This document shows, piece by piece, positions 7,339 through 35,963 of a stretch of DNA of 40,049 nt; the stretch's first letter is position 1; every line of letters starts with the position of its first letter. A program made the position numbers and the translations under genes. The notes below the pieces were generated by a model. That model had not been told where the DNA came from. It saw only the letters and a list, made by a program, of their open reading frames with translations, and did not search any database. This DNA is from a virus, in IMG/VR virus record IMGVR_UViG_3300027777_000068, positions 1 through 40,049 of that record, one strand, 5' to 3'.

Positions 7339-7926
7339 TTAGTTTATTAATTTAAAGTTATGTTTATAAATAGTCTTTCTAATTGACCCATTACAACCAT
7401 TATCCATTATTTTACCTCTTAATGCTGTTGAAAGTTTTTGTCTAACATTCTTTTCTGAACCTTTAGAGAAACCCTCATTTATTAAATATCTTGCCGCTTC
7501 GAATAAATTATCAAAAACATAAGATTTATTGTTAGATATTTCAGTTAAAACAAATTTTTCAAAATTACCATGTTTTTTTTGATTATATTTTGATAATCTT
7601 AATTTAACGTCGTCGTTGAATGTGTTTCTTCTAAACTCATTAACTTTTGCCAAATTATAACCAAAAATTGGATCATCCGTCTTATACATAGTAATATACT
7701 TATTTTCTAATAAAATTAAATCCTCAAAATTACATAATTCCAAAACTTCGAAAGTAAAGTTTTCTTCACCAAACTTATTATATGAATTTTGTAAATAATT
7801 ATTATCATGTATATTCTTACGTAACATCCAAAAATGTTTGTATTTTCTATTATCAACATTAACAGAACTACCGATATAAATTTTATTATCGTATTTATTT
7901 TCTATTTTGTAGATGCCGCAATTCAT
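7339..7926 (-). CDS. GIY-YIG family endonuclease (free-standing, SegB-like)
   Basis: 195 residues. GIYKIENKYDNKIYIGSS holds the GIY (4-6) and YIG (17-19) strands. VDNRKYKHFWML follows with the conserved Arg, then NYLQNSYNKFGEENFTFEVL and LLENKYI with the likely catalytic Glu. This is the 90-residue nuclease fold. The C-terminal half (about 115-195) looks like a DNA-binding module: SYVFDNLFEAARYLINEG fits a NUMOD1-type helix-turn-helix. Such enzymes are mobile homing endonucleases in phages. No intron or split gene is seen next to it, so it appears free-standing. Confidence 0.88.
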   Translation of the reverse strand: MNCGIYKIENKYDNKIYIGSSVNVDNRKYKHFWMLRKNIHDNNYLQNSYNKFGEENFTFEVLELCNFEDLILLENKYITMYKTDDPIFGYNLAKVNEFRRNTFNDDVKLRLSKYNQKKHGNFEKFVLTEISNNKSYVFDNLFEAARYLINEGFSKGSEKNVRQKLSTALRGKIMDNGCNGSIRKTIYKHNFKLIN

Positions 7927-10008: not shown

Positions 10009-10187
10009 GTTTTAGTAAAAGACTTTTAAAGAAAGAAAATATTTTAATGAATTTGGAAAATATAGTTCAATACCTAAACGCCGACGCAATAATTTGTAAT
10101 GACGAATTTTCAAAAAAGGTATATGATTTTTATAATCAAGGAAAAACAAAAGAAGAAATAATAAAATATATAACAGAAAATAAATGA
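10005..10187 (+). CDS. Small unknown protein coupled to glutamine synthetase
   Basis: 60 residues, basic at the N-terminus (MSFSKRLLKKENILMNLENI) and helical (YDFYNQGKTKEEIIKYITEN). It has ATGA overlaps on both sides. The C-terminal segment resembles the end helix of a small helix-turn-helix, but this is weak. Confidence 0.6.
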   Translation: MSFSKRLLKKENILMNLENIVQYLNADAIICNDEFSKKVYDFYNQGKTKEEIIKYITENK

Positions 10188-11281
10188 AAATTAAACTCGA
10201 ATACGTATGGTTAGACGGGTATGCACCTGAGCCAAACCTGAGAAGTAAAACTAAAATAGTTTATTACGACTCAATCAAAAATGCCTTTCTCGACGGAAAA
10301 TTTCCTATTTGGAATTTTGATGGATCTTCAACGAAACAAGCAAACACCGGAAATTCAGATTGTTTGTTAAAACCTGTGGCACATTATATTAAAGATATTC
10401 ATTCGACCATTTATGTTCTATGTGAGGTGTTAAATCCTGATGGAACGCCACATCAAACAAATACAAGATCTTTGATTGATAAAAATTATGATGATCTATG
10501 GTTAGGGTTTGAACAAGAATATTTTATTTACGATAGAAAAAATAAATGTGTTTTGGGTCACCATGAAAACAACTTAAAACCACAGGGTGAATATTATTGT
10601 GGTGTTGGTCATAATGTTGTTGGTCGTGAGTTTGTTGAAGAACATATGAATATGTGTTTGAGTTATGGTATTGATATAACAGGAATAAATGCCGAGGTTG
10701 CGTTAGGTCAATGGGAATATCAAGTATTATCTCAAGGTAAATTACAAGGTGGTGACGATCTTTGGATGACAAGATATTTCTTATTTAAGATTTCAGAGAA
10801 ATACAATTATGAAATCGAACTTAACCCAAAACCATTAAAACACGGAGAATGGAATGGATCGGGTCTTCACACAAACTTTTCAACAGATATGATGAGATAT
10901 TATGGAAATGAAAAGTATTTTATGGAACTATTCAACACACTCGAAACAAGACACAAAGATCATATTAAATCATACGGATCAAACAATCACTTACGACTAA
11001 CTGGTGAATATGAAACACAATCGATTGATAAGTTCAGTTGGGGTATATCAGATAGAGGAGCATCAATTCGTGTTCCACAGGACACCGCAAAAGAATGGAA
11101 AGGATATGTTGAAGATAGAAGACCAGGTTCAAATGCAGATCCATACAAAATCATTGGTGAGATAGTAAAATCTATAAAAATCACAGATGACAGATATAAT
11201 GTTGAAAATACTTCAAATGAAGATACGAATAAATCTCTGTGGACAGAAAATGAACCACATTTTTTTAGAATAAAAGAATAA
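10184..11281 (+). CDS. glnII: Glutamine synthetase, class II (eukaryotic-type)
   Basis: 365 residues, full length for class II enzymes, which make glutamine from glutamate, ammonia and ATP. Visible motifs are IWNFDGSST (43-51), the metal/glutamate site LGFEQEYFIYD (E110, E112), GEYYCGVGHN, INAEVALGQWEYQV (E171, E178), and the ATP/glutamate segment WNGSGLHTNFS (H229). Also present are NNHLRLTGEYET, FSWGISDRGASIRVP and the Arg-rich EDRRPGSNADPY. All key residues appear present, so it is probably active. It is coupled to small genes before (ATGA) and after (TAATG). Phage-encoded glutamine synthetases are uncommon. It probably raises glutamine for nucleotide synthesis, which is inference. Confidence 0.95.
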   Translation: MKIKLEYVWLDGYAPEPNLRSKTKIVYYDSIKNAFLDGKFPIWNFDGSSTKQANTGNSDCLLKPVAHYIKDIHSTIYVLCEVLNPDGTPHQTNTRSLIDKNYDDLWLGFEQEYFIYDRKNKCVLGHHENNLKPQGEYYCGVGHNVVGREFVEEHMNMCLSYGIDITGINAEVALGQWEYQVLSQGKLQGGDDLWMTRYFLFKISEKYNYEIELNPKPLKHGEWNGSGLHTNFSTDMMRYYGNEKYFMELFNTLETRHKDHIKSYGSNNHLRLTGEYETQSIDKFSWGISDRGASIRVPQDTAKEWKGYVEDRRPGSNADPYKIIGEIVKSIKITDDRYNVENTSNEDTNKSLWTENEPHFFRIKE

Positions 11282-14720: not shown

Positions 14721-14769
14721 CTTTGTTATCTATAAAACAAAGTGGTGGCTAGTAGACACATTCGGTGTC
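14721..14769 (+). other. Two hairpins in the lipoprotein 3' region
   Basis: CTTTGTT (14721-14727) pairs with AACAAAG (14736-14742). GACAC (14755-14759) pairs with GTGTC (14765-14769) around loop ATTCG. The segment is more GC-rich than its surroundings and lies just before a terminator, so it may be a stable 3' UTR or a small RNA. Confidence 0.4.
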
Positions 14770-14780
14770 GACCCAAAAAA

Positions 14781-14807
14781 AGGTGGAAGAAATTTCACCT
14801 TTTTTTA
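14781..14807 (+). terminator. Rho-independent terminator with GAAA tetraloop
   Basis: AGGTGGAA and TTTCACCT form an 8-bp stem (one G-T pair) closed by a GAAA tetraloop and followed by seven T. It separates the lipoprotein gene from the leader-bearing cluster. Confidence 0.9.
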
Positions 14808-14816
14808 TTTTCATAG

Positions 14817-14825
14817 TATTTATTA
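14817..14825 (+). promoter_or_regulatory. TATTTATTA late-type promoter motif
   Basis: TATTTATTATAAAA lies 14 nt before the ATG at 14840 and directly after the terminator. It is the likely promoter of the three-gene cluster 14840-16847. Confidence 0.45.
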
Positions 14826-14839
14826 TAAAATATCATATT

Positions 14840-15796
14840 ATGAGAAATAAATTTATTTTAACTGAAGAAGAATCTAAAAGGATTTTATCTCTTCATTCAA
14901 AAAAAATTCAAGAAGAAAGAGTACAGGGATCTAAAAATGTTATAAATGAAGCTGACCCAAGAATGAATGCTAAAAACGCAGTAGTTGGTGCGGCTTTAGC
15001 AACACCATTAATAGGACCATTGACTGCGATTAATCCGTTATTAGGACTTGCTGGTGTTGTTATAGGTGGTTGGTTAGGAGCCACTTATTCATCAGGAAAA
15101 GCTTTTGATAGAGTTAAAAATCTTTTAAAAGCTTGTAACACAAAAAAATCTAAAATAGGAAAAACAACGTTACCAACATCAAGAATAAAAGAAATTGCTG
15201 ATTCTTTAAATAAAGCAATTTCTGGTTTGGGAACAAACGAAGAATTGATTAAAGCTAACTTAGCTTCGATACCAACTTTTCCTGATTTATGTGCAGTAAA
15301 CTACACTTATTCAATTAGACAAAGTGAAACTTTATTTGATGCTATAGATGGTGATATTGATTCTGATAGTGAATGGAATGAATATGTTTGGAAACCAATT
15401 TATGGTTTAATTGAAAAAACAAAAACAGTTTCAGAAAACGAAGTTCTCAAAAATGCTAAAGCATGTGGTTATAACACTGTTGAAGAATATAAAAATGCAA
15501 AATGGAAATGTAATAAAAGTCAAAATAATAATCAAAAAGATGAGGAACTTTTAAAAACTGCAAAATCTTGTGGATGGAATAGTATTGAAGAATATAAAAA
15601 TTCAGGTTGGAAATGCAAAGTTCAAAAACAAAAAATTAGAAGAGGTGGTAGTAAAAGTGGATATACTTTTGATTTCAATACTATTATGAAAGAAATTGAT
15701 TCTAAATGTGTCTCTAAACAAACTCCAGAACCAACACCGACACCCGAAATAGACAGAACAATAACTAAAGATGTGTATCAAACATTAATCGCTTAA
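14840..15796 (+). CDS. Leader-bearing annexin-like protein with glycine-rich membrane segment
   Basis: 318 residues from the ATG at 14840; an upstream in-frame start at 14765 would run through the terminator. The leader MRNKFILTEEESKRILSLHS continues to VINEADP, with an (I)-x-E site at E37. Residues 47-82 are hydrophobic and Gly/Ala-rich (GPLTAINPLLGLAGVVIGG), suggesting membrane insertion. Residues 118-174 resemble an annexin repeat: LNKAISGLGTNEELIKANLA, then a Y-x-x-x-x-x-x-L-x-D-A-I end. Two copies of an LK-x-AK-x-CG-x-N-x-x-EEYKN-x-x-WKC motif lie at about 205-228 and 241-264. This profile fits a packaged, ejected or membrane-active virion protein; that role is inference. Confidence 0.78.
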   Translation: MRNKFILTEEESKRILSLHSKKIQEERVQGSKNVINEADPRMNAKNAVVGAALATPLIGPLTAINPLLGLAGVVIGGWLGATYSSGKAFDRVKNLLKACNTKKSKIGKTTLPTSRIKEIADSLNKAISGLGTNEELIKANLASIPTFPDLCAVNYTYSIRQSETLFDAIDGDIDSDSEWNEYVWKPIYGLIEKTKTVSENEVLKNAKACGYNTVEEYKNAKWKCNKSQNNNQKDEELLKTAKSCGWNSIEEYKNSGWKCKVQKQKIRRGGSKSGYTFDFNTIMKEIDSKCVSKQTPEPTPTPEIDRTITKDVYQTLIA

Positions 15797-16031: not shown

Positions 16032-16847
16032 ATGAAACGAAGACTTATAATAAGTGAGGAAGAAAAAAATAGAATATTAAATCTTCACGAAACAAGAAAA
16101 AATAAAGAGTGGAACTTAATAGGTGAACAAGTTACAGGAAACCCTGGAACACCCGTTGTTGGTGCAACTCCGCCCGCAACATCAGTTACAAACATACCTA
16201 TTCAAACAGCACCAACAAATACCCCAACAAATACCCCAACAAACACGACAACAACCCCAAAACCAAACTATGAAGATGGAGTATATAATAACGACAAAGA
16301 TTATGATTACAAAAAAGAAGGAGATAAATATTTTTTCAAATTGAAAACAAATCCTGTTAGCCCAAAGGTTAAAGCCTTAAAAAAACAAAATAAATATATA
16401 AATTGGACCGAAGCAACGGGTAACTCAAAAATAGCAATATCAAAACTTCCTTTTCTATCAACATTAACCGCTTTTAAAGGAGTTGGACCTGAAGTTGACG
16501 GTAGTGATGAAACTTTTGACGCACCAACCCAAACAGCACCAGTATCAACTACCCAAACAGCACCAGTACCAACTACCCAAACAGCACCAGTATCAACAAG
16601 CCAAACAACACCAGTATCAACTACCCAAACAACACCAACTACAAATAATACCGATCTTGCGGCAGACTTAAAAACCGCATCTCAAATCAGACAAGAATTC
16701 AGACAAGGTAAAAGAGACAAAAACAAAGCACAACGACAATACAACCAAATGGTCAATAAATATAATAAACTTAAAGATAAGATGAGTCCACAGGACAGCA
16801 CAGCTTATCTACAGGCGATTAACCAACTCAAACAACAACTGTCATAA
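16032..16847 (+). CDS. Leader-bearing Thr/Pro-rich repeat protein
   Basis: 271 residues. The leader MKRRLIISEEEKNRILNLHE leads to WNLIGEQ with an (I)-x-E-Q site at residue 32, very similar to the gene at 14840 (EE.K.RIL.LH). A low-complexity Thr/Pro region follows (about 48-75). Next is a folded segment around YFFKLKTNPVSPKVKALKKQ. Then come five copies of an 8-residue TQTAPVST unit (about 166-202). The tail is basic and helical (ADLKTASQIRQEFRQGKRDK). The Thr/Pro stretches look like flexible spacers. Probably a virion protein; exact role unknown. Confidence 0.75.
   Translation: MKRRLIISEEEKNRILNLHETRKNKEWNLIGEQVTGNPGTPVVGATPPATSVTNIPIQTAPTNTPTNTPTNTTTTPKPNYEDGVYNNDKDYDYKKEGDKYFFKLKTNPVSPKVKALKKQNKYINWTEATGNSKIAISKLPFLSTLTAFKGVGPEVDGSDETFDAPTQTAPVSTTQTAPVPTTQTAPVSTSQTTPVSTTQTTPTTNNTDLAADLKTASQIRQEFRQGKRDKNKAQRQYNQMVNKYNKLKDKMSPQDSTAYLQAINQLKQQLS
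16527..16640 (+). repeat. Tandem 24-nt coding repeats
   Basis: Four full copies and one partial copy of a 24-nt unit encode TQTAPVST with minor changes (V/P, A/T, T/S). There is no spacer between units, so it is a protein low-complexity repeat and not CRISPR-like. Confidence 0.9.
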
Positions 16848-16921: not shown

Positions 16922-18172
16922 ATGAGAAATATTATAATCACCAAAAGTCAATTAAGACTAATTACCGAAGCCTTGGGTGTTCCTGATTCTATTTTGGACG
17001 CAGCTGACATATTATATGATGTAGTTGAAAACAACATTAGATCAATAAACACCATTCAGGACGAATACAAATTTGATGGTGATCTTGATTTAGAATTAGG
17101 TGATAAGAAAAAAGTTAAAATTAATTCATATGAATTAACTATAAGTATTGAAGAGGTGGAAGATGAAGAAGGAGTTTTAGATATTATTTCTATGGGGATG
17201 GGAGGAAGATTTGGGTTTGATAGAAATGTTTATTTGAAACGAAATGAACCATCGAATAATTTGAATTTAAATATAACATTTGCGGTTGGAGAAAATTGGA
17301 AACCAGAAGAACTAATTCAAAAAATGGAAGAAGAAAGGGATGAACAAGTAGCATCTTTGGCACATGAATTAAAACATAAATACGATAAACAAGTTAATAT
17401 ATTTAGTAAAGTTGGACCTGACGCCAAATATCAAGCAACACAACAAAGAGGAACTTTTGCAATTCCTGTTATTGATAACGTCTTTTACAGGTATATGTAT
17501 TTTATTCATGGAATTGAAAATTTGGTTAGACCAACTGAAGTTGCATATTCTTTGAAAAGAAAAAAAATAACTAAATCACAATTCAAGGACTTTATTGAAA
17601 ATAACAGAGTTTATAAAGAATTATTAGAAATAAGAAATTTTACTTTTGAAGATTTTATTTCAAAACTAAAAGAACAAGAAGAAAGAATGGACAAACTTAT
17701 AGAACATATTGGTGAAGACCCTTCTGATATGACAATTAAAGAAAAAATTGACAAAGTTTTAGAAATTGTTTATATTGATTTAGTAAATAACAGACTGGAA
17801 ATGTTTTTTAGAATGACTGAACACGGAATGGATGATATGTTAAAATTTGGTGCTCAAATTGGGTTATTACCAAATGAATTACAAGGGGAAGTTGAAAAGT
17901 TGGGTAAAACCAATGAAGTTAGACAAAAATTTTTAAACCAAACTACTAAATACCAAAAAAACCCAACTAAATTTTTTGAAGATGAATTTGAAAAATTTAA
18001 TTATGTTGCAAATAAAATGATTAAAAAAATTGTCAAGTTATATGATATGGCTGAAGATGATAAAGAAATGACAGAATCAATACAGAATTGGGATCTTCAC
18101 CAACAAATTATGGAAAAAAAATATGGAAAAAGAAAAATCGAAACTAAAATTAAAAATTGGAATCTTAAATAA
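16922..18172 (+). CDS. Leader-bearing HELKH metallopeptidase-like protein
   Basis: 416 residues. The leader MRNIIITKSQLRLITEALGV has an (I)-x-E site at residue 16. A beta-rich domain follows, then the zinc-binding HExxH motif in VASLAHELKHKYDKQ (H148-E149-H152). A further Glu in VRPTEVAYSLKRK may be the third ligand. The second half is helical and highly charged (KLKEQEERMDKLIEHIGEDP). HExxH with upstream strands and an Ala before His is typical of zinc peptidases, but the motif alone is not proof. With the leader it could be a protease packaged in the head. Confidence 0.72.
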   Translation: MRNIIITKSQLRLITEALGVPDSILDAADILYDVVENNIRSINTIQDEYKFDGDLDLELGDKKKVKINSYELTISIEEVEDEEGVLDIISMGMGGRFGFDRNVYLKRNEPSNNLNLNITFAVGENWKPEELIQKMEEERDEQVASLAHELKHKYDKQVNIFSKVGPDAKYQATQQRGTFAIPVIDNVFYRYMYFIHGIENLVRPTEVAYSLKRKKITKSQFKDFIENNRVYKELLEIRNFTFEDFISKLKEQEERMDKLIEHIGEDPSDMTIKEKIDKVLEIVYIDLVNNRLEMFFRMTEHGMDDMLKFGAQIGLLPNELQGEVEKLGKTNEVRQKFLNQTTKYQKNPTKFFEDEFEKFNYVANKMIKKIVKLYDMAEDDKEMTESIQNWDLHQQIMEKKYGKRKIETKIKNWNLK

Positions 18173-18530
18173 ACTTTTGGTATTTATACCACTTTTATTA
18201 TTATCGTTTATTTTAACAAAACCAGAATACAAAGGACTGGCAACTTATTACGGACAACATTGGACGGGAAGATTAACAGCATCAGGAGAAAGATTTCACG
18301 CAGATAGTTTAACCGCCGCACACAAACACTTCAAGTTTGGAACAATACTAAAAGTTATTAACCATCATAATGATTCAATTTGTTATGTTAAGGTAAATGA
18401 TCGATTACCTAAATCGTCAAAAATGATGATTGATTTAAGTTATGGAACGGCCAAAAAACTTAATTTTCTAAAAAAAGGTGTTATAAATGTGACCCTTATT
18501 CCTGTCGATACTGTTAAAATTATTAAATAA
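18123..18530 (+). CDS. RlpA-like double-psi beta-barrel protein
   Basis: 135 residues. Residues 13-32 are a signal anchor (LNKLLVFIPLLLLSFIL). The domain is typical RlpA: KGLATYYGQHWTGRLTASGE, then LTAAHKHFKFGTILKVINH, then the catalytic-type VKVNDRLP with Asp, and MIDLSYGTAKKLNF. RlpA proteins are lytic transglycosylases acting on denuded peptidoglycan, with usual LTAAHxxLPFGT and NDRGP motifs; here NDRLP replaces NDRGP. The start overlaps the previous gene by 50 nt. It probably acts in the periplasm during lysis or entry. Confidence 0.85.
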   Translation: MEKEKSKLKLKIGILNKLLVFIPLLLLSFILTKPEYKGLATYYGQHWTGRLTASGERFHADSLTAAHKHFKFGTILKVINHHNDSICYVKVNDRLPKSSKMMIDLSYGTAKKLNFLKKGVINVTLIPVDTVKIIK

Positions 18531-18583
18531 TAAACAAAACATAGGTTTTGCTCAATAATATAATTTAATTATATCTTAATAAG

Positions 18584-18664
18584 TATTTATACGTATATAT
18601 TATTATAGTAACTCGACCGGCCCATGGCAGATGGGGGTTTCCAAAAAGGATTCTTCAAGTGAGT
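18584..18664 (+). promoter_or_regulatory. Late-type motif and GC-rich structured leader before the T9SS gene
   Basis: TATTTATAC at 18584-18592 resembles the late-type promoter core. From 18611 a GC-rich island contains ACTC (18611-18614) that can pair with GAGT (18661-18664), an inner CCCAT/ATGGG hairpin (18621-18635) and a TCC/GGA hairpin (18640-18650). This looks like a folded 5' UTR, perhaps a cis-acting RNA, but matches no riboswitch I can name. Nothing else is seen in the 165-nt gap. Confidence 0.4.
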
Positions 18665-18695
18665 ATAACAATTAATGCATTTTAATTTTATACAA

Positions 18696-21600
18696 ATGAA
18701 GAATTTATTATTATCAATTTTTGTTTTTTTTGCAAGTTTCGTCACTTTATCTCAATCTTGTACCCACACTATTAAACTTACCGATACTTTTGGTGATGGA
18801 TGGAATGGAGGTTATGTTTCTGTTTCTGTTGGTGGTGTTGTTGTTTTAAATAATATTACATTAGCAACTGGTTATGGTCCTGTAAATTATAATTTTACTG
18901 CAGCATCAGGTCAAACAATTCGAGTTTATAGAACAATAGCAGGAACTTATCCAAGTGAAATGAGGGTTCAAGTTGTGAATAATGTTGGAACAGTTTTACT
19001 TGCCACCGTACAACCTGTTGTTGGAACGGCAACTTCAGGAGGATATACTTGTATTGCTAATTGTGGGGTTGCATCTGCTGGATGTACAAACGTTTCATCA
19101 TATGGATCTGCTGTCGCACCGACAACACCAACTACGGTAACAATTTCAAGTTGTAATTTTCAAAATGAGTATTCAACCGTGTCAGGAATAATTGCAGGAA
19201 GAACTTATCAATTTGGATATAGTTTGGGTGGTTATATCACCGTTCATACAGGAACTTACAACGGACCAATAGTTGCTTATGGGACTGCACCCTTGAATTG
19301 GGCTTCAGCATATACAGGAACGGTTTTTGTTCATTACAATACAAACTCAGGATGTGGAACAGCATCTTCTTGTGGAACTTCAACTGTGAGTTGTGTTACT
19401 TGTTCTGCTCCTGCGGCACCTTCTAACGACCTTGTTTGTAATGCTACACCAATATCTTGTGGGCAACTAATTTCAGGAACAACTGTAAATGCTAATAACT
19501 CTGGAACAGGAGAAAATTCAACTTGTAGTGTAACTCAAACTCAACCTGGTGTATGGTATGTTATACCGGGAAATGGTCAAATAATGACAGCGTCATTATG
19601 TGCGACTGCTTGGGATAGTAAAATATCAGTTTTTAGTGGTCCGAATTGTTCTTCTTTAACTTGTGTGGGTGGAAATGATGATTCAGGTCCTGCGTGTGTT
19701 TCTACTTCAGCATCTTATAGTTGGACATCTGTTGTTGGTACTAATTATTATATTTTGGTTCACGGATATTCATCAACAAGTTCTTTTACAATTAATATGA
19801 GTTGTTATACACCACCACCATCTGCTCCAACATCTATAACGGCAACACAAAATACAATTTGTAATGGAACATCAACAACTTTAACTGCTAATGGAGCAAT
19901 TGGAACGGTATATTGGTATACAGGTGGATGTGGAACTACTTTTATTGGAACAGGAAATTCAATTACTGTAACACCTTCAACAACCACAACATATTTTGCA
20001 AGAAATTACAATTCAGGGTTATTTAGTTCAAGTTGTGCTTCGACCACTATAACAGTAAATCAAATACCGCAAGTTACAATAACTCCGACATCTAATGTTA
20101 TATGTAATGGGTCAAGCACTCAATTAAATTCTAATGTTAGTGGTTTATCTGTTCCTGGAAATTTAGTTGTGACAATATCCAGTGGTGGGTTTATGGATGA
20201 AACAAGTTGGGTATTATACAATAACTTAGGAACTATAATAGGTTCAGGTGGAAACTATGGGTTGGGAACAACAAACGTAATTCCAATTGGATCATCAGCA
20301 AATGGACCTTATACTTTTTCAATTGAAACTCAAGGAACTTTTAATGACAATACGGCAACTTTTACAATCACTTGTAATGGAACTACTATTTCAAGTGGAA
20401 GTTTAGGTGGGGGACAAACTTTTAATCAAGTTGTTTCATCTTGCACAACAACACCACCAATTACATATTCTTGGACTCCTTCGTTAGGACTATCTAGTAC
20501 AAGTTCAGCTAATCCAATAGCAACTCCTAATAATACTACGACCTATACCTTAACGGCAACGGCTAATGGTTGTTCAAATACGGCACAAGTTAATGTGACA
20601 GTGAACCCATTACCATCAGTAAGTGCCGGACCAAATCAAACTATATGTTCAGGTTCTTCGGTGGCTCTTTATGGATCAGGAGCAACAAGTTACACTTGGA
20701 ACAATGGTGTTACCAATGGAGTTTCTTTTTATCCTAATAATACACAAACTTATACGGTTACAGGAACAAACGCTAATGGTTGTTCTAACACATCAACCAC
20801 AACGGTTACAGTAATTTCAGCACCTGTGGCAAACGCAGGACCACCAGAAACAGGAAGCTCAACTTGTGGTATAAACCAAATTACTTTGGGTGCAAACGTT
20901 CCATCAGTTGGTCAGACTGGAACATGGAATGTTTTTAGTGGAGTTGGTGGAACTTTTTCTAACATTAATTCACCAACATCAACATTTACAGGAAATTATG
21001 GGTCAAGTTATATACTTCAGTGGAATGTAACTAATGGTCAATGTTCAACCTCCTATCAAAAATCGGTCACCTTCAATCAGCCAAATGATCTGTCATTGGG
21101 GGGTGCTATAGGTTCTAATGATTTTCTTTGGGGAGGTCTTACATCAACTGATTGGTCTACTTCAACCAATTGGTATCAAAAACAATCTGCGGGACATTTT
21201 GTTAGAATGTCAGGAAACGCTCAACCAACAAACTCAAATCAGGTATTTACATTAAATCAGGCAAATGGAGGTCTTTGTATAGGAAACGTTACACCTACAC
21301 TTAGCGTTAATGGAAATGCCTATGATGTTTTTATTAACCCTGGAATTACTTTGGACTTAAGCAATGATAGTCTTAATATAACTCATGATTTAATCAAAAA
21401 TGGTTCTTTAACGGCTTCGATAGGAACGGTGAATTTTATTGGAAATACAAACTCTACTATTGGTGGAAATGGTAATACTCAACTTTTTAACATGAAAGTA
21501 AATAAAAGTGGTGGTTCTAATCTTACACTCTCACAACCAATAACCGTTACTAATACTTTAACAATGGTTCAGGGAAATATTTTTACTTCTAATTCTAACC

Positions 21601-22736
21601 TTTTAACTTTGGGAACTACAAGCTCTCAATCTGGAACGCTTAACTACAACACCGGAACAATTGTTGGGCCTTTCAAAAGATATTATTCCTCAATTCCCAC
21701 AAGTGGAAATGACGGGTTCTTTCCTGTTGGGACTACATCTTACAACAGATATTCACAAATTAATTTTACTTCTACACCAGGATTAAATCAATCATTAACA
21801 ATTCAATATAAACTTGGAGCACCATTGGTTAACGGAACACCTCTTTATACAGGTTTACCTCAAGTCGTTAGTAATTCACTTATTCAAAATTATTCGGCAG
21901 ATGGATATTGGGAAGTGATTCCAAACAACGGGAATTATTCTTCAAGTATAAACTCAACACCATATAACATTACTCTTTTTGCAAATAATCTTAATGGTAT
22001 GACTACACCACAGATTTGTAGAATTATTAAGAGTCCAGGATCAACACACACAAGTTGGCAATCTTGTGGGACACATGTCCCAATTTTGGGAAATGCTAAC
22101 CCACAATCTTTTATTATCAACAGCACATCTTCGACTGGATTTAGTTGGTTCAATATTGGAACACCAAATTCTCAAGCGTTACCTGTGGAACTATTATCTT
22201 TTGATGGTTCTTGTAATGAAAACTTAATTACTTTAAATTGGAAAACGGCAACCGAACATAACTCTGACTATTTTGATGTTCTTAAATCAAGAGATGGTGA
22301 GAATTGGTCTAAACTGACCACTTTAAATTCAGTTGGTAATTCAAATCAAATGACAGATTATACGACAAAAGATGAAAACGCAATTGACGGAAATAACTAT
22401 TATAAACTTTTTCAATATGACATTGATGGTCAATATAAAGAGTATGGACCAATAAATGTTATTTGTGATGGAAATTCAAAAGGTTATTTTAGCATATTTC
22501 CAAATCCTAGTTCTGGTGATTTTCAGGTTGTGTTAAATAATAAAAATATGATTGGTAATGGAAAACTAATAATTAAAGATACAAAAGGATCTGAAATTCT
22601 TAATAAAGAAATTAATGTTATGACAGGAATTAATTTGTATGATATTTATGATTTAAATATACGACCAGGGGTATATTATGTTCAAATAACAAATAACAAT
22701 TTATCAACTCAAATAATTAAAGAAATTATCAAATAA
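18696..22736 (+). CDS. Large secreted multi-domain protein with T9SS C-terminal sorting domain
   Basis: 1346 residues from the ATG at 18696, which gives a clean signal peptide (MKNLLLSIFVFFASFVTLSQ); the upstream ATG at 18675 is less likely. The N-terminal domain has FGDGWNGGYVSVSVGG. It is followed by Cys-rich PPC-like domains (DLVCNATPISCGQLISG, VWYVIPGNGQ) and several Ig/PKD-like repeats with the Bacteroidetes NxTICxGSS pattern (NTICNGTSTTLTANG, NVICNGSSTQLNSN, QTICSGSSVALYGSG). The C-terminal about 90 residues form a T9SS type A sorting domain (GYFSIFPNPSSGDFQVVLNN ... GVYYVQITN). Such proteins are secreted across the outer membrane and attached to the cell surface of Bacteroidetes. On a phage it could be a captured host adhesin or a surface-altering factor. 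Confidence 0.9.
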   Translation: MKNLLLSIFVFFASFVTLSQSCTHTIKLTDTFGDGWNGGYVSVSVGGVVVLNNITLATGYGPVNYNFTAASGQTIRVYRTIAGTYPSEMRVQVVNNVGTVLLATVQPVVGTATSGGYTCIANCGVASAGCTNVSSYGSAVAPTTPTTVTISSCNFQNEYSTVSGIIAGRTYQFGYSLGGYITVHTGTYNGPIVAYGTAPLNWASAYTGTVFVHYNTNSGCGTASSCGTSTVSCVTCSAPAAPSNDLVCNATPISCGQLISGTTVNANNSGTGENSTCSVTQTQPGVWYVIPGNGQIMTASLCATAWDSKISVFSGPNCSSLTCVGGNDDSGPACVSTSASYSWTSVVGTNYYILVHGYSSTSSFTINMSCYTPPPSAPTSITATQNTICNGTSTTLTANGAIGTVYWYTGGCGTTFIGTGNSITVTPSTTTTYFARNYNSGLFSSSCASTTITVNQIPQVTITPTSNVICNGSSTQLNSNVSGLSVPGNLVVTISSGGFMDETSWVLYNNLGTIIGSGGNYGLGTTNVIPIGSSANGPYTFSIETQGTFNDNTATFTITCNGTTISSGSLGGGQTFNQVVSSCTTTPPITYSWTPSLGLSSTSSANPIATPNNTTTYTLTATANGCSNTAQVNVTVNPLPSVSAGPNQTICSGSSVALYGSGATSYTWNNGVTNGVSFYPNNTQTYTVTGTNANGCSNTSTTTVTVISAPVANAGPPETGSSTCGINQITLGANVPSVGQTGTWNVFSGVGGTFSNINSPTSTFTGNYGSSYILQWNVTNGQCSTSYQKSVTFNQPNDLSLGGAIGSNDFLWGGLTSTDWSTSTNWYQKQSAGHFVRMSGNAQPTNSNQVFTLNQANGGLCIGNVTPTLSVNGNAYDVFINPGITLDLSNDSLNITHDLIKNGSLTASIGTVNFIGNTNSTIGGNGNTQLFNMKVNKSGGSNLTLSQPITVTNTLTMVQGNIFTSNSNLLTLGTTSSQSGTLNYNTGTIVGPFKRYYSSIPTSGNDGFFPVGTTSYNRYSQINFTSTPGLNQSLTIQYKLGAPLVNGTPLYTGLPQVVSNSLIQNYSADGYWEVIPNNGNYSSSINSTPYNITLFANNLNGMTTPQICRIIKSPGSTHTSWQSCGTHVPILGNANPQSFIINSTSSTGFSWFNIGTPNSQALPVELLSFDGSCNENLITLNWKTATEHNSDYFDVLKSRDGENWSKLTTLNSVGNSNQMTDYTTKDENAIDGNNYYKLFQYDIDGQYKEYGPINVICDGNSKGYFSIFPNPSSGDFQVVLNNKNMIGNGKLIIKDTKGSEILNKEINVMTGINLYDIYDLNIRPGVYYVQITNNNLSTQIIKEIIK

Positions 22737-33321: not shown

Positions 33322-33768
33322 ATGAATAATCCATCAGGAAATAAATTAAAGAAACTTGTCTTTGGAATGTTTGACCAAATGGTTGAAAGTGCAGACAAGT
33401 ATGTAACAAAAGAAGGCTCAACTTGGCTGATATTCACAGAAGAAAAAAGATGGGTGGTTGAATTTACAAAGGATAAAACCTTATGGTTCAACTATAACCT
33501 ATTTCAAAGTGAGTTGTATCTAGTCAGTAAGGACTGCACTCAAGAAAGAGATTTGATCAAAAACTGGTTTGAATCAAGATTTTTGGGTATTAAACCTGTT
33601 GAAGACACCATTCAAAATGGGGTGAAACACACCTTGCCTTGGCAATATTGTTCGCATAGGTCAGTTGAAGACACCATTCAAAATGGGGTAAAGGACACCA
33701 AAAGCCTTCGTCGCATACATAATCGAAATGTTGAAGACACCATTCAAAATGGAGAAAAAATTAAATAA
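33322..33768 (+). CDS. Paralogue A: unknown 92-residue domain fused in frame to 36/30 repeats
   Basis: 148 residues. Residues 1-92 (MNNPSGNKLKKLVFGMFDQM, WVVEFTKDKTLWFNYNLFQS, RDLIKNWFESRFLGIKP) form an alpha/beta domain shared with the next gene. I do not recognise its family. From residue 93 the frame runs through a repeat array: VEDTIQNGVKHT, ten variable residues, VEDTIQNGVKDT, ten variable residues, VEDTIQNGEKIK, stop. Whether the tail is a functional peptide or an array that simply lacks stop codons is open. Repeat differences are mostly synonymous, which argues for some coding selection; the spacers contain CGT/CGC/CGA/AGG arginine codons rare in nearby genes, which argues against it. 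Confidence 0.65.
   Translation: MNNPSGNKLKKLVFGMFDQMVESADKYVTKEGSTWLIFTEEKRWVVEFTKDKTLWFNYNLFQSELYLVSKDCTQERDLIKNWFESRFLGIKPVEDTIQNGVKHTLPWQYCSHRSVEDTIQNGVKDTKSLRRIHNRNVEDTIQNGEKIK
33598..33752 (+). CRISPR. Mini array A: 36-nt repeats, two 30-nt spacers
   Basis: Repeat 1 is at 33598-33633, spacer 33634-33663, repeat 2 33664-33699, spacer 33700-33729, and truncated repeat 3 33730-33752 (23 nt). Both spacers are exactly 30 nt and unrelated. Repeats 1 and 2 differ at three bases. The repeat starts GTTGAAGACACC, has an inner hairpin CACCATT-CAA-AATGG with TG closing, and ends CACACC. No cas gene is visible. The array lies inside the 3' end of paralogue A. A coding-repeat explanation remains possible. 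Confidence 0.5.
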
Positions 33769-33769
33769 A

Positions 33770-34198
33770 ATGAAAAACCCAACAGGAAAAAAATTAGAAA
33801 AAATTATCTTTAAATTGTTTGACGATGCGAGTCAAGGGGTTGATAGATATAATCACAATGGCAGTCTATGGGCTATCTTCACCAATGAGACGAAATGGGT
33901 TTTTGAATTTACAAAGGACCAAACTCTATGGTATAACTATAGATTCTTCAATAATGAAATGGAACTAATCGGTAAGGACTGCACCGAAGAAAAAGATTTG
34001 ATTAAGAATTGGTTTGAATCAAGATTTTTGGGTATTAAACCTGTTGAAGATACCATTCAAAATGGGGTGAAACACACCTTCGGACATAAAATAGATTTTC
34101 ATGAAACGGTTGAAGATACCATTCAAAATGGGGTGAAACACACCGGTGGAATGTCCTTCAAACCTTATCAAACAGTTGAAGATACCATTCAAAATTAA
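33770..34198 (+). CDS. Paralogue B: unknown domain fused in frame to 36/30 repeats
   Basis: 142 residues from the ATG at 33770, 1 nt after gene A (an upstream start at 33728 lies inside array A and is unlikely). MKNPTGKKLEKIIFKLFDDA, WVFEFTKDQTLWYNYRFFNN and KDLIKNWFESRFLGIKP align along the whole length with paralogue A, so this is a tandem duplication. The tail is VEDTIQNGVKHT, ten residues, VEDTIQNGVKHT, ten residues, VEDTIQN, stop. The stop falls at the truncated last repeat, as in gene A. DNA identity with gene A rises sharply over the 33 nt just before the first repeat. Confidence 0.65.
   Translation: MKNPTGKKLEKIIFKLFDDASQGVDRYNHNGSLWAIFTNETKWVFEFTKDQTLWYNYRFFNNEMELIGKDCTEEKDLIKNWFESRFLGIKPVEDTIQNGVKHTFGHKIDFHETVEDTIQNGVKHTGGMSFKPYQTVEDTIQN
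34043..34195 (+). CRISPR. Mini array B: 36-nt repeats, two 30-nt spacers
   Basis: Repeat 1 is at 34043-34078, spacer 34079-34108, repeat 2 34109-34144, spacer 34145-34174, and truncated repeat 3 34175-34195 (21 nt). The two full repeats are identical and differ from array A repeat 1 only by C to T at position 9. The spacers are exactly 30 nt, unrelated to each other and to array A. Read on the minus strand, each spacer is followed 3' by a complete repeat and the truncated one is at the 5' edge. Geometry fits CRISPR type II-C or VI-B. No cas gene is seen. Confidence 0.5.
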
Positions 34199-34862: not shown

Positions 34863-35963
34863 ATGAATAATTTAGACAAACAATACCAATCATTACTCCA
34901 AGACATTTTGGAGAATGGTGTAAAAAAAGAGACTAGAAATGGAGATACCATTTCAGTGTTCGTTAGACAGATTCGTCATAACATGCAAGATGGATTTCCA
35001 GTTCTTACAACAAAGAAAATGGCTTGGAAAACTATTGTGACCGAGTTGTTATGGTTTCTTCGCGGTGATACAAACATCAAGTTCCTTGTTGAAAATGGTT
35101 GTCATATTTGGGATGGTGATGCTTATAAGAACTACTTACATAAAGTTATACGTGACAAAGACATTGTACAATACTTAAAATCATATTCAAAAGATACAAA
35201 AGGAGTCCCTACTATTGAACTCTATTCAAAAGATGAGTTTATTGAGCGAATTAAAAATGATGATGAGTTTGCTGAGAAGTTTGGGGATTTGGGAAAAATT
35301 TATGGTAAGCAATGGAGAAAGTGGACAGGTTATGAGAATAATACAAAAGTAAACGGGGTTTATGACGAATATCAAATTGACCAAATTACAAACCTAATCA
35401 ACGACCTTAAAACAAATCCAGACTCAAGACGATTGATGGTTAATGCTTGGAATGTTGGAGAATTGGATTCAATGGTACTTCCACCTTGTCATTATGGATT
35501 TCAAGTTTATACAAGAGAGCTAAGTTTGAGTGAAAGAACACAATATAAAAAGAAAAGAGATGGTATTGCTCGCACTTTTGCACCATACACTCATCAAATG
35601 TTAGATGGTTCAAACATACCAACCAGAGCAATCTCTTTAATGTATAACTGCAGAAGCCAGGACGTACCATTGGGAACACCATTTAATTTGGCATCTTATG
35701 GGTTACTTCTAACAATATTGGCAAAGGAGGTTAATATGATTCCTAATGAGTTGATTTCAAATATGGGAGATTGTCACATTTATTTAAATCAGATTGATGG
35801 AGTTAAAGAACAATTAACAAGAGAACCATTTGAGTTACCAACTCTTAATCAATTTCCAACTTATGAAGGAACAAGACCATCAATAGAATCTTATGTTATT
35901 GGTGATTTCACACTTAAAAACTACCAATCACACCCGACTATTAAAATGCCACTTTCAAATTAA
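34863..35963 (+). CDS. thyA: Thymidylate synthase (ThyA type) with insertions
   Basis: 366 residues against about 264 for the E. coli enzyme. It makes dTMP from dUMP with methylene-tetrahydrofolate. All key motifs are present: FPVLTTKKMAWKTIVTELLW, GDTNIKFL, IYGKQWRKW, the Arg pair PDSRRLMVNAWN, catalytic Cys209 in LPPCHYGFQVY, then CRSQDVPLGTPFNLASYGLL and MGDCHIYLNQ. The extra length lies in two insertions, about 92-145 (between NYLH and LGKIYG) and about 217-255 (between VYTRE and RAISLMYN). Both fall outside the catalytic motifs. It supplies thymidine for phage DNA. Confidence 0.96.
   Translation: MNNLDKQYQSLLQDILENGVKKETRNGDTISVFVRQIRHNMQDGFPVLTTKKMAWKTIVTELLWFLRGDTNIKFLVENGCHIWDGDAYKNYLHKVIRDKDIVQYLKSYSKDTKGVPTIELYSKDEFIERIKNDDEFAEKFGDLGKIYGKQWRKWTGYENNTKVNGVYDEYQIDQITNLINDLKTNPDSRRLMVNAWNVGELDSMVLPPCHYGFQVYTRELSLSERTQYKKKRDGIARTFAPYTHQMLDGSNIPTRAISLMYNCRSQDVPLGTPFNLASYGLLLTILAKEVNMIPNELISNMGDCHIYLNQIDGVKEQLTREPFELPTLNQFPTYEGTRPSIESYVIGDFTLKNYQSHPTIKMPLSN

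Follow-up and report, generated by a model that had tools for sequence, protein, structure and literature searches.

Why would a bacteriophage carry a long gene whose product bears the export signals of a Bacteroidota surface protein, and how might such a gene be controlled? The question is raised by the reading frame at 18696-22736 (+) of a viral DNA of 40,049 bp, a whole IMG/VR record that was analysed over its full length and is called the window here.

The surface protein gene and its phage setting

The gene order of the window is colinear from end to end with that of G006, a genome of 272,576 bases (272.6 kb) that carries genes for TerL, portal, major head protein, tail sheath, baseplate wedge and DNA polymerase. 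On this gene content G006 is a jumbo myovirus genome, and the relatives of its head protein include Flavobacterium phages. The colinearity spans both ends of G006 (34.4 kb in the window corresponds to 0.65 kb in G006, and 34.9 kb to 271.9 kb), a sign that G006 may be circularly permuted or close to complete; by alignment, the window is a fragment of a roughly 270-kb genome. Since the whole window is colinear with G006, gene order places the surface gene in a genuine phage genome, as the preliminary description had it. The statement that phage genes lie on both sides holds for their phage nature, which the colinearity and the phage-type accessory genes of the window (RNA ligase, thymidylate synthase, endolysin, homing endonuclease) indicate, but no capsid or terminase match was found within the 40,049-bp window. 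A tRNA scan of the window found none, and a Megablast search with its first 25 kb against INPHARED returned no match.

The gene is a single uninterrupted frame of 1346 amino acids, with full-length relatives at 73-77% identity; it is opened mechanically at 18675, whereas the signal peptide starts at 18696. That peptide, MKNLLLSIFVFFASFVTLSQ (18696-18752, +), is by inspection of the Bacteroidota Q-rule type (PMC5837995, PMC10653852), with a predicted cleavage at S19|Q20, and both residues are unchanged across eight relatives in the alignment. At the other end lies a predicted type A C-terminal sorting domain (CTD) of the type IX secretion system (T9SS), at 22494-22721 (+). TIGR04183 matches it with 23.4 bits against a cut-off of 23, while PF18962 (Por_Secre_tail) gives 20.1 bits in a single-protein scan, under its cut-off of 27, and 26.9 / 27.3 bits in a genome scan, about at the cut-off. 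The type A call is sound at the sequence level although this copy is borderline, because its relatives score up to 37 bits. Carrying both an N-terminal Sec signal and this domain, the protein classes as a T9SS type A cargo; export by the host T9SS is the straightforward reading, and surface export is well supported by the sequence. The signal peptide, the type A domain, the predicted route through the host's type IX machine and the rank of the gene as the longest in the window (the runner-up has 590 residues) had all been proposed earlier, and each holds up here. Neither SprB repeats nor a type B (CHU_C) CTD were found in the window protein by Pfam scan, so it does not class as a SprB-type gliding adhesin.

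Pfam recognises one Ig_7 domain in the window protein (PF19081, 35.4 bits; residues 375-455, 19818-20060, +). A predicted model of residues 1-470 (mean pLDDT 75) consists nearly entirely of strands, with four or more beta-sandwich domains in a row across residues 21-455. Alignment and model outline an N-terminal beta domain with a GDGWNG motif (18756-19055, +) and a second, Cys-rich beta domain (19071-19400, +) that is CUB-like by inspection, with CUB proteins among the Foldseek matches. They are followed by a domain of the PPC or collagen-binding type (residues 244-371, 19425-19808, +), modelled with Z 11.5 and an rmsd of 2.3 Å over 103 aligned residues to 3jqw_A. Residues 372-455, with the Ig_7 domain, resemble the Ig domain of the grappling hook protein GhpA (9flx_A; Z 11.6, rmsd 1.8 Å over 81 residues, 27% identity). 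The PPC/collagen-binding and Ig matches are of single predicted domain folds, from which no function follows. A phmmer search against PDB gave no match, and a BFVD fold search gave weak multi-domain matches only. The repeated Ig/PKD-like domains reported earlier survive as this series of modelled beta-sandwiches with one Ig_7 domain; no PKD domain was found by Pfam scan.

The gene is present in related phages: ten close relatives of it lie in virus contigs and have common neighbours. Upstream in most of them are a 416-aa zincin-like ORF, which in the window (16922-18172, +) has an HELKH motif and no Pfam family, and an RlpA-like ORF with an N-terminal membrane segment (18123-18530, +; TIGR00413 94.2 bits, cut-off 82.15). 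Contigs that extend far enough downstream have an AAA-type ORF and an RNA ligase there. All eight phages in the alignment share the first 460 residues of the protein and its last 185; the centre is variable at about residues 640-1160 (module at 20613-22175, +), and five of the eight have a much shorter segment in its place. By inspection the window protein appears to be a mosaic, because its last residues resemble L005 while its centre matches L002/L007. The nearest bacterial protein, L059, on the Flavobacteriia MAG contig JAPLEV010000019.1, has 64% identity over residues 5-470 and adjoins a RecJ-like gene, with neither leader nor phage synteny. It is the only close host copy and falls, with weak support, inside the phage branch of the tree, so that transfer may have gone either way. 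Host and phage copies are interleaved. The genome from which L059 comes (G011) has 45 CHU_C matches and therefore represents a T9SS-rich lineage making many cargos; on this evidence the lineage is a plausible host group, and the host of the phage is probably a freshwater, Flavobacteriales-like member of the Bacteroidota.

G006 encodes a second cargo, of 815 aa, with SprB repeats, a PKD domain and a CHU_C type B domain (45.4 bits). Of the two cargos, only this one (L036:4469-6916) combines SprB repeats with a type B domain. Searches recovered it from 43 virus contigs, among them records of 274-291 kb and 436 kb, and it also occurs in LR745206.1, a phage of 634 kb (48% over 98%). In the 436-kb record G318, three further ORFs with signal peptides come after a type A-like gene that bears the leader, and the last ORF of this cargo operon carries a type B domain (TIGR04131, 47 bits). 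The T9SS-cargo trait is therefore broader than a single gene.

A conserved leader RNA before the cargo gene

The 85 bases that precede the ATG (18611-18695, +; R1 match 100.4 bits) are kept in all relatives of the surface gene. Three pattern scans and a blastn match in LR745206.1 place this leader in about 45 virus contigs, and 28 distinct leaders were anchored for comparison. Wherever the start is readable, a signal-peptide gene follows, Q-rule-like in 28 of 28 cases. Most of these genes are relatives of the 1346-aa protein, and unrelated N-terminal regions stand behind the leader in L228, L230, L233, L246, L247, L249 and L250. NCBIfam recognises a CTD in some, not all, of the leader genes, and some end in a short variant, ...NxxGQEV...G...EIYxDGT...K, to which no known sorting family is assigned. 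Phage T9SS cargo can do without the leader, since three relatives of 274-291 kb (G315-G317) have a type A cargo without it. Rfam 15 gave no match to the window leader up to E 5, nothing over gathering scores in the window as a whole, and no match overlapping the diverged leaders. Nor did scans with an exact pattern or with strict filters find the leader in 299 genomes from the order of the nearest host or in 395 from its phylum, with phage records as the positive control; within the limits of these scans, we rejected a leader borrowed from the host. A phage-wide regulon was likewise rejected, because G006, like every virus record with a match, has a single copy.

Comparison of the leaders points to a defined architecture. 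A closing helix, P0, pairs CUC at 18612-18614 (+) with GAG at 18661-18663; the pairing is CUC/GAG in 30 leaders and UCC/GGA in L230, which amounts to two double changes. Within it, hairpin 1 (18615-18639, +; GACC-GG-CCCAU / AUGGG-GGUU) is paired in 31 of 31 sequences, with G-U to A-U changes, an invariance that is partly selected because hairpin 1 was part of the search pattern. No such constraint applied to hairpins 2 and 3 or, in later scans, to P0. Hairpin 2 (18640-18650, +) reads UCC...GGA here and UCU...AGA elsewhere, its third pair being C-G in 14 sequences and U-A in 11. Hairpin 3 (18663-18693, +), an A/U-rich stem, ends 2 nt before the ATG and folds in 12 of 13 diverged representatives, L249 being the exception; the representatives are related to one another. 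Pairing holds in 99.1% of the cells of the alignment, three pairs show double changes, and for four of five measures none of 500 shuffles was as high as observed.

The sequence of hairpin 3 is fully diverged while its pairing is retained. Because it cannot be aligned by sequence, it was tested by swapping arms between sequences: its own arms gave -79.8 kcal/mol against -32.0 +/- 7.0 for permuted arms (0/100000 permutations). RNAalifold on a MAFFT alignment returned hairpin 1 only, for the same reason. Folding of single sequences gives weak z-scores for the leader (-0.3 to -1.0), and the case for structure rests on comparison. A conserved upstream peptide (M-V/A/E-D-G-G-F...) was considered as an explanation of the leader and rejected, its frame being broken or ending early in many leaders. 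With compensatory changes in its helices, the leader reads as a structured cis-acting RNA; a riboswitch is a bare possibility, as no hint of a ligand was seen.

Just upstream lies the promoter-like GTATTTAT / GTATATATTATTA (18583-18605, +), to which a promoter role may be ascribed from motif enrichment. Octamers of the TATTTATA type are enriched before the starts of G006 (52 vs 9.0 and 43 vs 9.0 expected), mostly 12-25 nt upstream of them. As the same kind of motif stands about 10 nt ahead of most leaders, the mRNA probably begins at the leader. We lean slightly towards the view that the leader represents a new, phage-specific family of cis-regulatory RNA, so far seen in Bacteroidota jumbo phages alone and there only ahead of genes for exported cargo, mostly linked to the T9SS, and that it times or senses surface display, the cargo being exchangeable while the RNA stays.

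Proposed surface display during infection and competing explanations

The likeliest reading is that infected cells are made to display an adhesin encoded by the phage, whose expression the leader sets. On infection, transcription would probably start from the phage promoter about 10 nt before the leader, and the leader, with P0 around two hairpins and a third abutting the ATG, would determine how this one mRNA is translated or how stable it is. Host signal peptidase I would remove the Sec signal peptide at S|Q, and the CTD would be recognised by the host T9SS, so that the protein ends up at the cell surface, displayed or released. Its beta-sandwich domains, its domains of carbohydrate- or collagen-binding type and its Ig domains could act there as an adhesin-like coat. 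The benefit would most likely be a changed adsorption surface, that is superinfection exclusion, and next a changed cell-cell or surface adhesion. In F. columnare, phage resistance arises through gld/spr (T9SS, gliding) mutations (PMC9233685); T9SS-built surfaces therefore matter for adsorption, and an adhesin coat supplied by a phage could block later phages. For a virulent phage, surface display would pay only in an infection of sufficient length. Of the earlier suggestions for this gene, a superinfection block and an effect on adhesion or gliding are candidate roles, whereas lysogenic conversion finds no support, as no sign of a temperate lifestyle was found and the relatives are jumbo myoviruses. 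The whole sequence of events, from phage promoter and leader through T9SS export to an adhesin-like coat and changed adsorption, is to us the best explanation and a fairly probable one.

The main rival, which we regard as possible but rather doubtful, holds that the exported adhesin serves the attachment or aggregation of infected cells, and with it the spread of progeny, instead of phage exclusion. The resemblance of its folds to collagen-binding/PPC modules and to the grappling-hook adhesin of Aureispira speaks for this, as does the presence of SprB repeats, a gliding-adhesin feature, in the companion cargo. Shared folds in a predicted model do not show function, however, and the variable central module is compatible with either role.

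Two other proposals concern the leader. It could be a DNA element, a recombination or packaging site that keeps the cargo exchangeable, instead of an RNA device; the near invariance of hairpin 1 and the mosaic or unrelated cargo behind it would fit. We think this improbable, since only the coding strand retains the G-U pairs (28/31 at one position), the arms of hairpin 3 are wholly diverged yet paired next to the start codon, and a promoter-like motif stands about 10 nt upstream. The leader might instead be an attenuator or terminator-like stop between the RlpA-like and surface genes, hairpin 1 being G/C-rich and followed by GGGGGUUU. This is quite improbable, as a U-run is absent and the leader is constant while the upstream genes vary across phage lineages.

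There is, further, little chance that the product is a fibre or decoration protein of the virion that merely resembles secreted proteins. Ig-like domains are frequent in phage structural proteins, and distant virion and fibre proteins are among the Foldseek matches, but such a protein would hardly account for a signal peptide with an invariant S-Q and a T9SS CTD, and the gene lies at 13.7-17.7 kb in G006, away from the head and tail genes at about 80-195 kb. Finally, a misassembly or mis-binned host contig, a danger noted at the outset and suggested by the bacterial-T9SS-like protein and the recJ-bearing bacterial contig of L059, has next to no probability: it is excluded in practice by synteny along the 272.6-kb phage and by the recurrence of gene, leader and neighbours in contigs of many independent metagenomes.

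If the phage does direct the display of its own adhesin, then phages remodel the host surface through the host's secretion machine during infection, with a bearing on superinfection, on adhesion and on where some bacterial surface proteins come from. The leader RNA would offer a compact means of control that lends itself to testing, and could serve as a marker in searches for further genes of this kind.

Comparison with known systems

The core idea of a phage-encoded T9SS cargo is not new, because it has been published for Cryophage (Nat Commun 2020, PMC7468147), in which genes with type A sorting domains, variable between phage variants, led to the proposal that the host T9SS is hijacked. The preliminary description was silent on this precedent, as on the RNA leader and the second, type B cargo. 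The Cryophage genes share the type A sorting domains, but their cargos are an endoglucanase, a GH39 protein and a PA14 protein among flexible genes, whereas the protein here is multi-domain and adhesin-like, is conserved across a group of jumbo phages and is encoded behind a structured leader, with a type B companion. The crAss-BACON cluster 2 ORFs (Viruses 2019, PMC6949934) likewise have a T9SS sorting domain in phage ORFs; they differ in their BACON repeats and phage lineages, and no leader is reported in the parts consulted. Phages of Porphyromonas gingivalis (PMC10367356) encode proteins with Q-rule signal peptides that are suggested to alter the outer membrane, with no T9SS CTD reported.

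Among bacterial proteins, L059 shares the N-terminal architecture but belongs to a bacterial chromosome and lacks the leader. Aureispira GhpA shares the Ig-like fold, as a match of one domain only, and is a bacterial surface protein of several thousand residues (fragments numbered to 5009). Within open-access papers we found no report of a T9SS or SprB trait in jumbo phages. Two things are new here: the conservation of the trait among jumbo phages, with cargo of type A and of type B, and the structured leader. Single reports of phage T9SS cargo may thus be extended to a trait that is conserved in a group of very large phages of Bacteroidota, comprises two classes of cargo and is tied to a previously undescribed structured RNA.

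Leader RNA and type IX cargo in phages

The structured RNA directly ahead of the surface gene (window 18611-18695) shows covariation and is carried by about 45 virus contigs; no match to it was found in Rfam. A second gene for type IX secretion system (T9SS) cargo, encoding 815 aa with SprB repeats and a type B C-terminal domain, lies on the minus strand of G006, the 272,576-base jumbo myovirus genome colinear with the window (L036:4469-6916, G006 224469-226916), and is kept in 43 virus contigs. In two other large phages (L224:10534-17935 and L226:5617-10285), four signal-peptide ORFs stand in a row with the leader-bearing gene first, and the last ORF of the L224 run has a T9SS type B domain. 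The 634-kb phage (L252, LR745206.1 10000-48000) encodes several more signal-peptide proteins, of 832, 732 and 608 aa, which look like T9SS cargo.

Recurring elements and differences from G006

Unrelated window proteins (108-458, 14765-15796, 16032-16847 and 16922-18172) share an N-terminal tag like MKRRLIISEEEKNRILNLH, which is present in G006 too. Across the G006 genome, a TATTTATA-type motif is strongly enriched 12-25 nt upstream of gene starts and is a candidate phage promoter element. The window's GIY-YIG-type homing endonuclease gene (7339-7926, minus strand) has no counterpart at the matching place in G006. At window 33322-34198, overlapping ORFs of 148 and 156 aa each match a single 273-aa G006 gene (928-1749), and may represent either a split gene or a duplication.

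Metabolic and nucleotide genes

A glutamine synthetase GlnII-like gene (window 10184-11281; 332 bits, below the cut-off of 500) is kept in relatives and is a possible auxiliary metabolic gene. The thymidylate synthase (window 34863-35963) has 366 aa over a profile of 266 positions, which suggests an insertion of about 95 residues.
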